A stretch of DNA of 64,000 bases from a virus. The first letter of the stretch is position 1. The number at the start of each line of letters is the position of its first letter. Under the pieces are notes generated by a model that was not told the origin of the DNA, did not search any database, and was given only the letters and a program-made list of their open reading frames with translations. The DNA lies in IMG/VR virus record IMGVR_UViG_3300043434_000295, positions 1 to 64,000 of that record; one strand, given 5' to 3'. The translations under genes and the position numbers were made by a program. Positions 51,010 to 58,808 of this stretch are shown piece after piece.

Positions 51010-51447
51010 ATGTCAATGAATTGGGTTGCCGACATGGCATCAATGCACCAAAAGTTTGGTGTTAATCCTGTTGTACGAAACTTTGATAAAGAAAAAGCAC
51101 GTGCATTTCTTGAATTTAGAATTCGATTCCTTCAAGAAGAACTCGATGAAATGCAAAAAGCGTTGAATCAGTTTGATGCTGGTGAGATTGATGGTACTAA
51201 AGCCGCAGATGATATTGTTGATGCAGCAATTGATTTATGTGTGGTTGCAATTGGAACACTCGATGCGTATGATGTTAATTCATATACCGCATGGAATCGT
51301 GTTTGGGAAAAGAATATGGAAAAGGAAGTAGGTATTAAAGCTTCTCGTCCTAATCCACTTGGACTACCAGACCTCATTAAACCGGAAGGTTGGACTGCAC
51401 CAACTCACGCAGATAACGTTGGAACTTTGAAAAAGGTATTCGAATAA
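51010..51447 (+). CDS. mazG: MazG-like nucleotide pyrophosphohydrolase
   Basis: A 145-residue all-alpha protein. The catalytic pattern is visible as E-E-L-D-E-M-Q-K-A-L (residues about 36-45) and, 27 residues later, D-D-I-V-D-A-A-I-D-L, giving the ExxE-ExxD metal cluster of the family. Cyanophage and marine phage MazG enzymes hydrolyse dNTPs or alarmones. It sits between helicase and primase candidate and overlaps the latter by one base. AGGAG is the ribosome site. Confidence 0.85.
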   Translation: MSMNWVADMASMHQKFGVNPVVRNFDKEKARAFLEFRIRFLQEELDEMQKALNQFDAGEIDGTKAADDIVDAAIDLCVVAIGTLDAYDVNSYTAWNRVWEKNMEKEVGIKASRPNPLGLPDLIKPEGWTAPTHADNVGTLKKVFE

Positions 51448-53125: not shown

Positions 53126-53809
53126 ATGTTCTATTTAATGATTAAAACACATAATAAAACTAAATTAAAATATCTTTGCAAATGTACTAATAGAGATCCA
53201 TACAAATATAAAGGTTCCGGAGTTTATTGGAAAAGACATCTCAAAGATCATGGAAGCGATATTACTACCGAAGTGATATTTCAGACTGAAGATTTAAATG
53301 AATTTAATTCAGCGTGTTTACGCTATTCTAAAGAATTTAATGTAAAAGATTCTGATGAATGGGCTAACCTAATAGAAGAAAATGGATTAGATGGAGGTAC
53401 AACTCACACTAACCCGTATTGGCTAAAAGGATTTAAACATTCAAATGAATCAAAAAGTAAAATATCAGAATCTTCGAAAAAGAAAAGAGTACCTCTATCT
53501 GAAAACGTTAAACAAAAGATAAGCGATGCTTTACGCGGAAAATCTATAAAATGTTCTCCTAAGGGCGTTGCAAAAACAGAAGAACATAAACGTAAAGTAT
53601 CTCAAGCTTTAAAAGGAAAGCCTAAGAATTTTTCTAAAAATGGTTTAGAAAATATGAAGACGTCAGTTAGTGAACGCCAAAAAAGAAAATATAAATGTTC
53701 AGTTTGTGGTAAAATAGGAAATGCTGGGCAAATCGGTCGTTATCATAAAGAATGTATGAAGGAGTTATCATGGAACAAAATGGAAATCAATCAGAGCGAG
53801 CATCAGTAA
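53126..53809 (+). mobile_element. Free-standing homing endonuclease gene (GIY-YIG-like with NUMOD3)
   Basis: A 227-residue protein. The N-terminal domain begins F-Y-L-M and has K-Y-L-C-K-C-T and Y-K-Y-K-G-S-G-V-Y-W-K-R-H-L, a degenerate GIY-YIG layout seen in phage homing enzymes. Three NUMOD3 DNA-binding motifs follow (residues about 105-120, 124-140, 149-166; K-I-S-D-A-L-R-G-K type), then a zinc finger (C191, C194, H207, C210). The gene carries its own late promoter and strong ribosome site, as T4 homing genes often do. Its 3' end holds the ribosome site and start of the next gene. It is AT-richer than its neighbours, a sign of transfer. Confidence 0.8.
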
Positions 53810-54267
53810 AAGTTTTAAAAGAAGCAATGGATTTGCAGAATCGAAAGTCACAAGATTATCAGAATCCTTTGAGCCGTGTACGCCAAGCCGATCACTATCC
53901 GCGTGGCGTTTATACTATCCTTGACACCATTAATGGCAAGATGCTTCGCATGTATTCTGTATTAGAAACTATGGAACAAGGTGGCAAAGTCAATTTTGAA
54001 TCTATTGAAGATTCTGCAATTGATATGATTAACTACGCGTCATTTCTTGTTGCATATATGCGTGGTGATATCGATGGTCAAGAAACGGGCAAGGATATCT
54101 TCAATCGTCGTGTAAGCAAAGCAACACATCCTACTACAGATTTGTATCCTGCAAAGTTCCGTGCAATCACCAAAGAACAAACAACTCTTGATGCACGCAA
54201 TTTTACAAATATTGTACCACAGGATGAAGTTGGAAAGTACGTACCTACTGGAAGATTTGAAGAATGA
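53770..54267 (+). CDS. Nucleotide-modification-associated protein (DUF1599-like)
   Basis: A 165-residue protein with K-S-Q-D-Y-Q-N-P-L-S-R near residue 25 and a long helical core ending E-D-S-A-I-D-M-I-N-Y-A-S-F-L-V-A-Y, the layout of DUF1599. This family is thought to be linked to modified nucleotides and is distantly MazG-like. ATG 53770 with GGAG 6 bp upstream is preferred over 53752, which lacks a ribosome site. It overlaps the endonuclease gene by 40 bp and gene 42 by 4 bp. The neighbours make a role in the modified-base pathway plausible. Confidence 0.65.
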   Translation: MEQNGNQSERASVKVLKEAMDLQNRKSQDYQNPLSRVRQADHYPRGVYTILDTINGKMLRMYSVLETMEQGGKVNFESIEDSAIDMINYASFLVAYMRGDIDGQETGKDIFNRRVSKATHPTTDLYPAKFRAITKEQTTLDARNFTNIVPQDEVGKYVPTGRFEE

Positions 54268-55019
54268 GTTACGATTATTACAATATGAAAACATGTCATG
54301 AAATTCGCCAAGAATTCGCTAGACTTTATCGTCAGCAAAAGTTTGTAACAGATAAATCCGGCGTTAAAACCGTTGAAATCATGGGTGCTAGCTTCTGGGC
54401 TAATTCACCTATGATCTTTGGTGCAGTCAATGAAGACTACGTTCAACGTGAACTTGACTGGTATAAGTCACAATCCTTGAACGTAAATGATATTCCCGGT
54501 GGACCTCCAGCTATTTGGAAACAAGTTGCTGATAAAGATGGAATGATCAACTCTAACTATGGCTGGTGTATCTATTCAGCAGAAAACAATCATCAGTTTG
54601 CACACGTTGTAACTGAACTTGAAGAACGTCCAGATTCTCGTCGTGCAACGATGATTTATACACGTCCCACGATGTGGGGTGATCACAATAAGAATGGTCG
54701 TTCTGACTTCATGTGTACTAACAGCGTGCAATATATGATTCGCAATAATCGAATCTATGCTATCGTACAAATGAGAAGTAATGATGCATGGGCTGGATAT
54801 CGCAATGACTATGCTTGGCAGAAATATGTTCTGCAGGAAGTCAGAAATGAATTGCAGTATCGTGGAAAGTTTTATGATTGCGGTGAAATCTTTTGGAATG
54901 TAGGTTCACTTCACATTTATGAACGTCAATTCTATTTGCTTGATCATTACATAAAGACGCACGAATTGTCTATAACTAAGGAAGAATATGACAAACGCTA
55001 TAAGCAAGCGACTGTCTAA
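54264..55019 (+). CDS. gp42: dCMP hydroxymethylase gp42
   Basis: A 251-residue member of the thymidylate-synthase fold (T4 gp42 has 246), converting dCMP to 5-hydroxymethyl-dCMP with methylene-tetrahydrofolate. Similarity to T4 gp42 runs the whole length: V-K-T-V-E-I-M-G-A-S-F, I-N-S-N-Y-G-W, P-D-S-R-R, I-Y-T-R-P-T-M. The catalytic Cys is C151 in D-F-M-C-T-N. D182 (R-N-D-Y-A-W) occupies the site that is Asn in thymidylate synthase and Asp179 in T4 gp42, which selects cytosine. This implies hydroxymethylcytosine in the phage DNA. Confidence 0.93.
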   Translation: MSYDYYNMKTCHEIRQEFARLYRQQKFVTDKSGVKTVEIMGASFWANSPMIFGAVNEDYVQRELDWYKSQSLNVNDIPGGPPAIWKQVADKDGMINSNYGWCIYSAENNHQFAHVVTELEERPDSRRATMIYTRPTMWGDHNKNGRSDFMCTNSVQYMIRNNRIYAIVQMRSNDAWAGYRNDYAWQKYVLQEVRNELQYRGKFYDCGEIFWNVGSLHIYERQFYLLDHYIKTHELSITKEEYDKRYKQATV

Positions 55020-55455
55020 ATGGGATCAACGTTATGTTGAACTAGCTAAACAAATTTCTACTTGGAGTAAAGATCCAAGTAGAAAGATTGGTGCGGTTGC
55101 CGTAGGTTCTAAAGGTCAGATTCTATCGCAAGGATATAATGGCTTTCCACGAGGAATCCTCGATCTTCCTGAACGTTATGAGAACCGAGAGGTAAAGTAT
55201 AAGCATGTTGTTCATGCAGAAATGAATGTAATCTATAATGCAACGTTCAGCGGCGTTTCTCTTGATGGTGCTTCTCTTTTTGTATACGGTCTCCCAGTGT
55301 GCAACGAATGCGCAAAGGGAATTATCCAGGTTGGTATAGAACGAGTTGTCATATATACAGATGAGCTTGTGCCAACGATTTGGACAGATGCTTTTAATTT
55401 GACTTGGCAAATGTTTAAAGAAGCAGGTGTAAAATGCAATTGGATTCAAACATGA
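54988..55455 (+). CDS. cd: dCMP deaminase
   Basis: A 155-residue zinc enzyme (T4 Cd has 193) making dUMP for dTMP synthesis. The zinc and catalytic residues are H76-A-E78 in V-V-H-A-E-M-N and C105, C108 in L-P-V-C-N-E-C. The G-Y-N-G-F-P-R-G segment is typical of phage and bacterial dCMP deaminases. The start overlaps gene 42 by 32 bp, with GGAAG as ribosome site. Pairing with gene 42 lets the phage steer dCMP between the hydroxymethyl and thymidine routes. Confidence 0.92.
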   Translation: MTNAISKRLSKWDQRYVELAKQISTWSKDPSRKIGAVAVGSKGQILSQGYNGFPRGILDLPERYENREVKYKHVVHAEMNVIYNATFSGVSLDGASLFVYGLPVCNECAKGIIQVGIERVVIYTDELVPTIWTDAFNLTWQMFKEAGVKCNWIQT

Positions 55456-55634
55456 AATGTTATTGCTATACATGCAAGAGTAAAGAAGTAGACGAAAGAG
55501 GATTTTCTCCTGTGATGTATACTTTTATTGTGTGTCCTGAATGTGGTAATAAACGTTGTCTAAAGTCTACAGATCATAATTTCAAATGCACAAATAGCAA
55601 CGAACCAGGACAAGAAGGAAGTAGATATAAATGA
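55452..55634 (+). CDS. Small zinc-ribbon protein
   Basis: A 60-residue protein with Cys pairs C-Y-C-Y-T-C near the N-terminus and C-P-E-C-G-N-K-R-C, enough for one zinc ribbon. I take ATG 55452, which overlaps the deaminase stop; the in-frame ATG at 55434 is an alternative that would add 6 residues. Its stop overlaps the glucosyltransferase start (ATGA). Function is unknown; DNA or protein binding within the modification block is possible. Confidence 0.6.
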   Translation: MKCYCYTCKSKEVDERGFSPVMYTFIVCPECGNKRCLKSTDHNFKCTNSNEPGQEGSRYK

Positions 55635-56836
55635 AAATCGCAATTATTATGGGTCGTGGCATCGAAGGATGTGGTGTTACGAAGTTTACTGTTGAACAAA
55701 CAAAATGGATGGCAAAGAATAGCCATGATTTTGTTGTATTTTCTTCTAAAGATAAATCGTGGACTCGTAAGAATGCCCATGACGTTTCAAATGTAGTGCA
55801 ACTTAAGTTTGCAAAGCAAGAAGAAATGAATAAACTAATTGAAGGTTGTAATAAAGCCGATGTAGTTATTATCAATAGTCTTCCTTCACTTAGTCATCCC
55901 GAAGAAGCAATCAATCAGTTCAAACGATCTCTTGAAGAAATTCAAAAACCAATTGTTCTAGTTCAACACGATCATTCATCTTTATCAATTAAACGTAATG
56001 CTGCTATTGAAGAAGCTGTAAAACGTGCTAATATTCTATTTGGTCATAGCGATACAAACGACTTTGCAAAATATGTTGGCGAAGTTACTGGTGGAGGTGG
56101 ACTTGCCGGATTCTTTGGTGACGATGAATCAAAAACTATATTGAACTTCCAGCCGGGCATTGACTTTGATTCTATTCGCGCTAAGTATTGGCTTGACATT
56201 GATCAGACGCGTCCATTAGAACACAAATGGATTGGCCGTACTACAAGTTGGAAAGGCTATGTTCAGATGTTTAAATTCCATAATGAATTCTTACGTCCTG
56301 GTGGTTATATCACTACGTTTGAAGGTATTGAAAAGTCTCCAGCTTATCTTGATTTTAGAAAGCTTTCTGAATTTCATGGAATGATTGATAAAGACATCAA
56401 TACTATTTCACTTGAAAAAGATCAACCAGCATATGTCTTTGGTCCATATATCAATGAACAGATGTTGTACCGAATGGCTTCAACTGGTTTTGGTTATCAG
56501 TTATCTATTCTAGATGAACGATTTATTCAACGATCTATTGAATATACACATTGTGAATTGGCTGCTGTTGGTGTAGTACCGGTCTTCCGCAAGTTATATG
56601 GTGAACGTTGTACACACCGCAAATATGGTGATAAACTAATCAATTGCAAGAATACTGGAACGATTTGGTTAGATGATACTAATATGCAACCAGCTTATGA
56701 TTTGGTCAACAAACTAACCAAAGATAAAGTCATGCGAAACGAATATCGTGAAATGGCGTTCGAATTTTACAAACAACATCAAGATTCACAATATACATTT
56801 GCAGAAATGATGAAACTTATACAAGATAATCTATGA
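55631..56836 (+). CDS. agt-like: DNA alpha-glycosyltransferase, T4 AGT-like
   Basis: A 401-residue GT-B enzyme, almost the size of T4 alpha-glucosyltransferase (400), with family blocks all along. These include R-G-I-E-G-C-G-V-T-K-F near residue 9, I-I-N-S-L-P-S, V-Q-H-D-H-S-S-L-S-I-K-R-N, W-I-G-R-T-T-S-W-K-G, and the sugar-nucleotide site G-F-G-Y-Q-L-S-I-L-D-E-R-F with I-E-Y-T-H-C-E-L. T4 AGT adds glucose from UDP-glucose to hydroxymethylcytosine in DNA, protecting it from restriction. The donor sugar here is not certain, because the next gene is a UDP-sugar dehydrogenase. Confidence 0.9.
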   Translation: MKIAIIMGRGIEGCGVTKFTVEQTKWMAKNSHDFVVFSSKDKSWTRKNAHDVSNVVQLKFAKQEEMNKLIEGCNKADVVIINSLPSLSHPEEAINQFKRSLEEIQKPIVLVQHDHSSLSIKRNAAIEEAVKRANILFGHSDTNDFAKYVGEVTGGGGLAGFFGDDESKTILNFQPGIDFDSIRAKYWLDIDQTRPLEHKWIGRTTSWKGYVQMFKFHNEFLRPGGYITTFEGIEKSPAYLDFRKLSEFHGMIDKDINTISLEKDQPAYVFGPYINEQMLYRMASTGFGYQLSILDERFIQRSIEYTHCELAAVGVVPVFRKLYGERCTHRKYGDKLINCKNTGTIWLDDTNMQPAYDLVNKLTKDKVMRNEYREMAFEFYKQHQDSQYTFAEMMKLIQDNL

Positions 56837-57627
56837 ATATTTGCATAGTTGGCCATGGTGTTGTTGGTAAAGCTGTACAACATGGTTTTACCAACAATTT
56901 GACACATCTGTATGTTGTAGATCCTCAGTACGATACATATATAGATTCGTTATATGATTTGTTTAAACCAGACATTGTTTTTATATGTGTTCCAACACCA
57001 ACTACGAAAGATGGGATAGACTCTTCTATAATTGAAAGTGTATTAAAAGAAATTAGTTTGCGTGAACATAAGCCTATAGTTGTAATAAAGTCTACTGTTA
57101 CGCCCGATGTTTGTGATAAACTTTCTTCTATATACTCACCTATAGTTTATAATCCAGAATTTCTAACTGAAGCAAATTGTATTAATGATTTTGTTAATCC
57201 AAAATTTATTTTGCTTGGCGGTGAAACACGCAACGTATTAGAAGTTGCAGAAGCGTATTCACAATATTCTTTATGCAACCCATGTCCAGTCTATATGGTT
57301 GATGAAAAAACTGCGTGTTTGATTAAATATACGTTGAATAGTTTTCTTGCAACCAAAGTTGTATTTTTCAACCAAATGTATGACATATATAAAAAGTCTG
57401 GCGCTGATATCACTTGGGAAAATTTTATAAAGATCATATCAAACGATGATCGAATCGGAGATACTCATATGAATGTTCCAGGTAAAGATGGTATGCGTGG
57501 ATTTGGTGGCATGTGCTTTCCAAAAGACACTAAAGCTATTATTCATTATGCTAAAACAGTGGGTGCACCATTTAGTATTCTTGAAGAAGTTGTTGATATA
57601 AATTATAAATTGCGAGATATGAAATGA
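56833..57627 (+). CDS. Short UDP-glucose/GDP-mannose dehydrogenase-like protein
   Basis: A 264-residue protein. The NAD-binding motif is G-H-G-V-V-G (residues 7-12), then F-I-C-V-P-T-P-T-T and K-S-T-V-T-P. The catalytic Cys is C228 in G-F-G-G-M-C-F-P-K-D. Full-length enzymes have about 390-450 residues; the C-terminal nucleotide-sugar-binding domain is absent here, yet the gene ends cleanly, overlapping the next by 4 bp. Related short forms occur in phages. Between a UDP-sugar-using transferase and a DNA methyltransferase, it could alter the donor sugar, for example to a uronate; this is inference. Confidence 0.82.
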   Translation: MNICIVGHGVVGKAVQHGFTNNLTHLYVVDPQYDTYIDSLYDLFKPDIVFICVPTPTTKDGIDSSIIESVLKEISLREHKPIVVIKSTVTPDVCDKLSSIYSPIVYNPEFLTEANCINDFVNPKFILLGGETRNVLEVAEAYSQYSLCNPCPVYMVDEKTACLIKYTLNSFLATKVVFFNQMYDIYKKSGADITWENFIKIISNDDRIGDTHMNVPGKDGMRGFGGMCFPKDTKAIIHYAKTVGAPFSILEEVVDINYKLRDMK

Positions 57628-58808
57628 AACACGCATCTATTGTACCATTAATTGGTGGAGAAACTCTTGGACAAATTAATGCTTTTGGCACAAAGCCTGA
57701 TTACTTACTTTCGTATACCCCCTTCTCTAATAATGATTCGCACTTGGTTAATTACCTTAAAGATGTTCCTTACATCTTACTCGACCAAGGCAGAACGCAT
57801 CCTGGGTATGTTGATATTGTTAATGCTGTGTGTCCTTGCGCTGGCCTCAGCTCTTTATCTCCATCGGCAAGCTCAGATTCTGCTGTTAACGACTGGATGA
57901 TGATCACTGCAAAATATGTACTTGAGGAAATGAAACCTCAAGTATTTTGGGGAGAGAATGCTCCTCGATTTGCAGGTGAAATGGGTAAACCAATCGTTGC
58001 AAAATTACATAAACTGGCTCGCGAAAATGGATATACAATGTCCATTTATAGGACTAAGTCCCTATTACACGGACTTAGTCAAGTTAGAGAGCGTTCTTTC
58101 TATTTCTTTTGGAAAGGCGATAAGGTACCCATTTTTAAATTCTTTGATGAATATCGTATTAGTATCGAAGATCAAATTAATTTGGTTAAACCTGAGTCTA
58201 CTCAACAAGAAGTAACTAATAAGAAAATTCCAAGTAAAGATGATCCTTATTATCGATATGTTCTTGAAGTTATGCATAAGGGTATTAGTCATTCTGAATT
58301 CCAGAAGACACTAATAAAATCTGCTGATGCAATGCATTATATCGAAGAGAATGGACATAACTATCGTATGCTGAAACCTTTCTTTGAGAAAGAAGGTTAT
58401 ACTAAACTTGCAAATAAAATGGAAGCCATTCAAGCAAAACTTGATGCAGGTGGAAATATTATGAGACGTGCTTCCTATATTCCAAAAGATTATATTGGTG
58501 CCTTTGTTGGTCATTTACCAGTTTCGATGACACACCACAGTGAAGATCGATACTTGACTTATCGTGAATGTATGACTATTATGGGTTTACCTCAGGACTT
58601 TGAGTTATTGAATCCTGCAAAAAACTTAAATCACGTATGTCAAAATGTACCAGTTCATACCGCTACAGATATGGCCATGGAGATTAAAGCTACTCTAGAA
58701 GGTAGACGTGATATGATGAATAGTACATTGATGTATCAGTTTAATCCTCAGAAAACATATGAACTTAGAGATCCAGAAGAATTAAGTAGTTTAGAATCCT
58801 TCATGTAA
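57624..58808 (+). CDS. C5-cytosine DNA methyltransferase-like protein
   Basis: A 394-residue protein with class motifs in the right order. A degenerate motif I lies near the N-terminus (P-L-I-G-G-E-T-L-G). Motif IV with catalytic Cys is C-P-C-A-G-L-S (C72), motif VI G-E-N-A (about 110-113) and motif VIII Q-V-R-E-R (153-157). A C-terminal T-Y-R-E-C-M-T-I-M-G-L-P-Q-D-F and V-P-V-H-T-A-T block corresponds to motifs IX-X. Motif I is unusual for AdoMet binding, and motif IV has Ala in place of Gln. In DNA with hydroxymethylcytosine the C5 position is blocked, so its target is unclear. A terminator follows. Confidence 0.8.
   Translation: MKHASIVPLIGGETLGQINAFGTKPDYLLSYTPFSNNDSHLVNYLKDVPYILLDQGRTHPGYVDIVNAVCPCAGLSSLSPSASSDSAVNDWMMITAKYVLEEMKPQVFWGENAPRFAGEMGKPIVAKLHKLARENGYTMSIYRTKSLLHGLSQVRERSFYFFWKGDKVPIFKFFDEYRISIEDQINLVKPESTQQEVTNKKIPSKDDPYYRYVLEVMHKGISHSEFQKTLIKSADAMHYIEENGHNYRMLKPFFEKEGYTKLANKMEAIQAKLDAGGNIMRRASYIPKDYIGAFVGHLPVSMTHHSEDRYLTYRECMTIMGLPQDFELLNPAKNLNHVCQNVPVHTATDMAMEIKATLEGRRDMMNSTLMYQFNPQKTYELRDPEELSSLESFM

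Follow-up and report, generated by a model that had tools for sequence, protein, structure and literature searches.

A putative 5-hydroxymethylcytosine synthesis and decoration cassette in a T4-like virus, ending in a C5-methyltransferase-fold protein with probably altered cofactor use

The window analysed here is a stretch of 64,000 nucleotides (positions 1 to 64,000) of IMG/VR virus record IMGVR_UViG_3300043434_000295, a 166,832-base record of an uncultured T4 relative that also encodes the T4-like replication genes gp43, 41, 44, 45, 46, 32, 59, regA, and gp55. At 53752-58808, its plus strand carries seven co-directional open reading frames (ORFs), neighbors overlapping by 4-32 bp, that resemble a cassette for the synthesis and decoration of 5-hydroxymethylcytosine (hmC). 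In order, they encode a MazG-like protein of 171 aa (53752..54267; PHROG 18404 “hydrolase,” 45 bits; PHROG 1485), a dCMP hydroxymethylase (HMase) of 251 aa (54264..55019), a dCMP deaminase (54988..55455; PF00383, 66.7 bits; PHROG 174), a cysteine-rich protein of 66 aa (55434..55634), a member of the DNA alpha-glucosyltransferase family (AGT) of 401 aa (55631..56836), a short UDP-glucose dehydrogenase (UGDH) of 264 aa (56833..57627; PF00984, 71 bits; PF03721, 62 bits), and, as the last gene, a C5-methyltransferase-fold protein (C5MT; 57624..58808; PF00145, 57.7 bits). The HMase and deaminase genes overlap by 32 bp, and overlaps of 4 bp join the 66-aa ORF to AGT, AGT to UGDH, and UGDH to C5MT. 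A preliminary description of the region had reported a linked HMase, dCMP deaminase, and full-length T4-AGT-like transferase with overlapping starts, and it is correct at the gene level. It under-read the locus, as its interval, ending at 57627, also contains the unmentioned UGDH, and the run starts earlier, at the MazG-like ORF, and extends to C5MT; also missed were C5MT, which is conserved, and a variable slot for sugar enzymes, both described below.

Two of the products match solved T4 enzymes. HMase aligns over residues 9-246 with T4 dCMP hydroxymethylase (1b49; phmmer, E-value 9.9e-89). Hallmarks of T4-type hydroxymethylases are the nucleophile Cys148, Asp145 three residues earlier, and Asp179, which sets cytosine specificity (PMC6400193); in an alignment to T4 gp42 all three are present, within SDFMC and RNDYAW. 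AGT aligns with T4 AGT over residues 1-397 (1xv5; E-value 4.9e-105, ~41% identity), matches PF11440 over its full length (302.7 bits; curated cut-off 25), and keeps EGCGV, R203, K208, E304-Y305, and E309, which are invariant through T4, phage G, and S-TIM54. Zinc motifs HAE and PVCNEC are found in the deaminase, while UGDH comprises N-terminal and central domains with the catalytic motif GGxCFPKD (4a7p, E-value 1.7e-27), the C-terminal domain being absent. The 66-aa ORF, which precedes AGT in seven relatives, has no match in Pfam, PHROG, or NCBIfam. Because HMase and AGT match solved T4 enzymes and keep the diagnostic residues, glycosylated hmC is the best reading of the locus, and the DNA of this virus probably contains it. 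The proposal that base-modification genes occur here outside the T-even group, in a non-enteric T4-like virus, is borne out.

The route had also been called complete-looking, a view that fits the retained HMase and AGT residues but not the remainder of the T4 pathway. Searches of the record with T4 proteins (phmmer) found no homologues of gp1, gp56, beta-glucosyltransferase (beta-GT), denA, denB, or alc, and the profile of gp1-type 5-hydroxymethyl-dCMP (hm-dCMP) kinases, PF21448, had no match in the 166,832 bases, a record that is possibly incomplete itself. Family searches of the record likewise found no TAGT, no TET/JBP, and nothing for PF20691 or PF09198; the PF09198 profile was silent in the controls too, and the TET and beta-GT searches were silent in every control genome. 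As candidates for dCTP exclusion the record holds two MazG-like ORFs: the cassette member, found immediately 5′ of HMase in most relatives, and a second MazG-like pyrophosphohydrolase (51010..51447, plus strand; PF01503, 23.1 bits) that is a possible part of the cassette. Identification of the former as a gp56 homologue was dropped, as a profile search detected no similarity to T4 gp56 and the AlphaFold2 model was too poor (pLDDT 61). In the MetaGPA study, thymidylate synthase (TS)-type, PF01503, and dCMP deaminase domains co-occur on experimentally cytosine-modified contigs (PMC8670742), and this co-occurrence makes the MazG-like ORF a plausible candidate dCTP/dNTP pyrophosphohydrolase in place of gp56 activity. 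Since gp1 and gp56 homologues were not found, either the host or phage genes of other descent, such as the MazG-like ORFs, must provide for dCTP exclusion and for the phosphorylation of hm-dCMP, and the latter step may be carried out by a host enzyme.

An AGT-based search retrieved 52 IMG/VR loci, among which MazG-like, HMase, deaminase, AGT, and C5MT genes recur in this order in dozens of contigs, and the arrangement is therefore not due to chance. (Each homologue sample consisted of the best 80 matches, and the HMase profile was built from the window clade, T4, and XG4.) In this set, all contigs of sufficient length have C5MT behind AGT, with the exception of L044. A tie of C5MT to AGT was nevertheless rejected: it holds in the AGT-selected set, and two C5MT-led searches with different leading sequences, which removed the AGT bias, showed the tie to be with HMase. 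C5MT is a coherent viral family of at least 591 IMG/VR stretches. HMase is present in all 68 C5MT loci whose upstream sequence reaches 4 kb or more (47/47 clusters at 90% identity) and lies upstream on the same strand in 46 of the 47 clusters, at a median distance of 3 kb; AGT is present in just 24. By comparison, 6 of 23 helicase-anchored T4-like contigs of at least 10 kb, a small control, contain HMase (Fisher p ~9e-14, computed on the 68 undeduplicated loci). In the opposite direction, 38 HMase loci extend 8 kb or more downstream, and 23 of them have C5MT; C5MT thus implies HMase, and the reverse does not hold. As a proportion, the control rate agrees with the earlier statement that marine T4-like phages usually lack these genes, but HMase genes are frequent among uncultured viruses, with at least 561 stretches. 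A literature search, largely without subscription papers, found no description of the cassette.

The C5MT model (AlphaFold2, pLDDT 86.7) has C5-methyltransferases as its top Foldseek matches. In an alignment of 121 sequences (117 IMG/VR clusters, the window, and three isolates), with motif positions placed by alignment to 3g7u and M.HaeIII, Cys72, Glu111, Asn112, Arg155, Arg157, and Gln340 are identical throughout, so that base flipping and covalent attack on C6 should work. The S-adenosylmethionine (SAM) site is different. Motif I reads [VI]PLIGG in about 120/121 sequences, compared to the canonical FxGxGG, and the ribose-binding Glu (position 30) is replaced by Ser in 114 and by Thr in 6, Glu remaining in 1. 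An ordinary C5-methyltransferase from the control set (L314 932-2080), which was considered as a C5MT lacking HMase and rejected, lies on a piece without HMase and retains both FAGGGG and NE. As both features are replaced family-wide and kept in L314 and in the carboxymethyltransferase CmoX, we infer that cofactor chemistry has changed as a family trait and that C5MT, an enzyme separate from CmoX, acts on cytosine or hmC in DNA by way of non-standard cofactor chemistry. Judged from these residues, that chemistry is probably new.

Between HMase and C5MT lies a variable slot, whose sugar enzymes are exchangeable among viruses. Across the 47 clusters it contains AGT (24), short-chain dehydrogenase/reductase (SDR) epimerases (11), UGDH (5), UDP-galactopyranose mutase (4; PF03275, 170 bits), 5-hmdU-DNA-kinase-like PF18723 proteins (3), inositol-phosphate-synthase-like (3) and PALP-like (3) proteins, as well as TAGT and GT4-like proteins. 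AGT, TAGT, and HMUDK belong to families with established names in DNA hypermodification. Two further families without assigned function, PHROG 14998 (7) and PHROG 13881 (6) (L108 6419-7543, L144 2656-3873), are positioned like glycosyltransferases; profile comparison gave weak N-terminal similarity to T4 beta-GT (25-64% probability) and none to AGT. Among the close AGT clade, UGDH between AGT and C5MT is confined to the window lineage, and the order AGT-epimerase-UGDH-C5MT recurs in other contigs, which suggests a route via UDP-glucuronate in these relatives. UDP-galactopyranose mutase genes in the slot (L134 8236-9264; also L108, L110, L111, L143, L149, and L268) predict a galactofuranose-type DNA sugar. 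PF18723 genes, often with inositol-phosphate-synthase-like genes, adjoin C5MT in L125, L136, L175, L222, L278, L284, and L286, which may reflect kinase-based hypermodification of hmC. UGDH and SDR epimerase genes were also seen near a helicase gene, without HMase, in L064 (Phage C48C1), L300, L315, L319, L331, L339, L348, and L370; they make up a sugar-nucleotide module of their own among T4-like viruses.

C5MT is also present in eight annotated phage records, comprising the S-TIM5 group, Bacillus phage G, and Pseudoalteromonas phage XG4. In each of the four unrelated C5MT lineages (these three and the window clade), a TS-type enzyme carries the dCMP-type Asp at the specificity position, within VPLDM in S-TIM5, TPYDI in the second copy of phage G, and PNDLA in XG4. 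AGT-like genes occur in three of the four lineages; among the isolates, S-TIM5, S-TIM54, and phage G (in two copies) have them and XG4 does not. The S-TIM5 enzyme (AEZ65733.1; L060 2766-3602), annotated as ThyA, is encoded ~3 kb from the C5MT gene and, given its VPLDM motif, could hydroxymethylate or methylate dCMP; it has Cys at the Asp145 position, so that its product might be 5-methyl rather than hydroxymethyl dCMP. In phage G, positions 219303-234188 (L063, L069, L071, and L079) hold the C5MT-like gp301, two AGT-like genes, and the second TS-type enzyme, which has Asp at both hydroxymethylase positions. This gene content suggests that phage G DNA may carry glycosylated hmC.

From these gene identities, residues, gene order, and associations, we consider it likely that the run is an hmC synthesis-and-decoration cassette that includes a C5MT with altered cofactor use. 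HMase would produce 5-hm-dCMP, and the deaminase and MazG-like ORFs would move nucleotide pools away from dCTP. The hm-dCTP, phosphorylated probably by a host kinase, would be incorporated into DNA, where AGT would add a sugar to hmC, most likely alpha-glucose from UDP-glucose; glucose is slightly favored overall as the sugar of this virus. C5MT would use its Cys, as methyltransferases do, to attack C6 of a flipped cytosine-type base; its substrate would be hmC (or residual C), and it would employ a different cofactor or no cofactor at all. As its SAM site is rebuilt, plain SAM methylation is most likely not its reaction. A natural C5-methyltransferase that acts on hmC is chemically reasonable, given that C5-methyltransferases in laboratory reactions in vitro use formaldehyde to form hmC and can also act on hmC, attaching thiols to it (PMC7176277). 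More tentatively, C5MT could represent a new class of DNA-modifying enzyme, in which a methyltransferase fold has given up SAM chemistry and works on the hmC of DNA through covalent Cys-C6 catalysis, as the common last step of a large and modular family of viral hmC-hypermodification cassettes. Included in this tentative proposal is that the hydroxymethyl OH might be swapped or removed, or an unrecognized cofactor used, and that the exchangeable sugars might include predicted uronic acids and galactofuranose.

Several observations weigh against these interpretations. The adenine-contact Asp (D54) is kept in 100/121 C5MT sequences and the motif X Asn in 120/121, and an altered SAM motif alone does not prove that SAM use is lost. 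Neither gp1 kinase nor gp56 was found, and the supply of hm-dCTP is therefore presumptive. C5MT is missing from 15 of the 38 HMase loci that extend 8 kb or more downstream and is therefore not required for every hmC cassette, and UGDH could alter the AGT sugar donor. With the fold and the catalytic residues, the two retained residues are also what would be expected of an ordinary SAM-dependent C5-methyltransferase acting on cytosines left by incomplete hmC replacement, the remainder being a T4-like glucosyl-hmC pathway; residual dC would be plausible where gp56 and gp1 were not found. We regard this explanation as rather unlikely, though it deserves serious weight, as the motif I Phe, the first Gly, and the ribose Glu are replaced across the whole family and not in L314, and as a near-absolute association with HMase would be odd for a generic methylase. 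A second explanation for C5MT, as a CmoX-type carboxymethyltransferase using carboxy-SAM (Cx-SAM), draws on the presence of CmoX (8yf3) among the best Foldseek matches (E-value 6e-12) and on CmoX being a phage C5-methyltransferase with a new cofactor, held by a Phe, a Glu, and Asp69 (PMC12783734). That Phe and Glu are both lost in C5MT. Membership was rejected on two defining features, Arg350, which is Asn341 in 120/121 sequences, and SPPC, which has become xCPC; moreover, CmoA (TIGR00740) has no match in the record, and this identity appears extremely improbable.

With regard to the sugar, UGDH might instead supply UDP-glucuronate to AGT in this lineage, yielding glucuronosyl-hmC, while epimerase-bearing relatives would attach another uronic acid, for instance galacturonate. 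The position of UGDH, set by 4-bp overlaps between AGT and C5MT, its intact catalytic motifs, and the repeated AGT-epimerase-UGDH-C5MT order in several contigs are consistent with this, as is the finding that the slot epimerase is closest to the 5u4q/6zl6 SDR group, which we take to include UDP-glucuronate 4-epimerases. However, UGDH lacks its C-terminal domain and, with an epimerase, also occurs near helicase genes in the absence of HMase, so that it may serve other purposes. AGT of the window is, moreover, ~90% identical to the AGTs of relatives without UGDH. A UGDH-driven change of the AGT donor site was considered and rejected, the lineage-specific substitutions (e.g., K244 for E) including none at family-invariant residues. 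We regard glucuronosyl-hmC as doubtful, and glucose on hmC remains the favored outcome. The sugar genes could finally be imagined to remodel cell-surface glycans, leaving DNA unmodified, in line with the interpretation of pelagimyophage glycosyltransferases and UDP-glucose dehydrogenase as lipopolysaccharide-related (PMC7029224). We consider this very unlikely, as the T4 family of which AGT is a member is specific for DNA, and the AGT gene shares one overlapping run with HMase. For HMase itself, we know of no role apart from hmC synthesis.

Other features were seen beyond the cassette. Just upstream, at 53126-53809 of the window, is a homing-endonuclease-like ORF with NUMOD3 repeats, and a homologue occupies the same spot in L048. 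Elsewhere, adjoining ORFs at G000 102282-104708 resemble, by eye, nicotinamide-nucleotide adenylyltransferase and NAMPT of NAD salvage, and two adjoining ORFs at G000 133937-135366 resemble, also by eye, fatty-acid desaturases.

Glycosylated hmC is known chiefly from T-even and related cultured phages, and the cassette points to a modular form that is common among uncultured viruses and whose variable sugar slot predicts unseen DNA sugars. It shares homologous HMase, deaminase, and AGT genes and key residues with the T4 hmC pathway (gp42, AGT, Cd deaminase, gp1, gp56, and beta-GT), whereas its genes are packed in one overlapping run, gp1, gp56, beta-GT, TAGT, denA, and alc are undetected in the record, and UGDH and C5MT are added. 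The modular slot and the HMase-bound C5MT family with its rebuilt cofactor site, absent from T4, are the new elements, and they provide a short list of genes for expression that could reveal new DNA chemistry, hmC-modifying tools, and new targets of modification-dependent restriction. RB69-type arabinosyl-hmC (PMC6024577) and the pentose-cytosine of Thanatos (PMC12838424) similarly combine a phage-encoded sugar on cytosine with phage sugar genes. Thanatos relies on a UDP-xylose pyrophosphorylase, and its candidate transferase is another one, in contrast to the AGT family and UGDH of the window, in whose record neither an SDR epimerase nor a decarboxylase was found. CmoX (PDB 8YF3; PMC12783734) resembles C5MT in its C5-methyltransferase fold, catalytic Cys/Glu/Arg, phage origin, and changed cofactor use, but C5MT lacks SPPC, Arg350, a CmoA partner, the cofactor Phe, and the ribose Glu, and is tied to HMase. 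Finally, the MetaGPA 5-hmC carbamoyltransferase contigs also link a TS-type enzyme, PF01503, and dCMP deaminase to an hmC-tailoring enzyme; in those contigs modification was shown, the tailoring enzyme is a carbamoyltransferase, and the main text makes no mention of PF00145 (PMC8670742).

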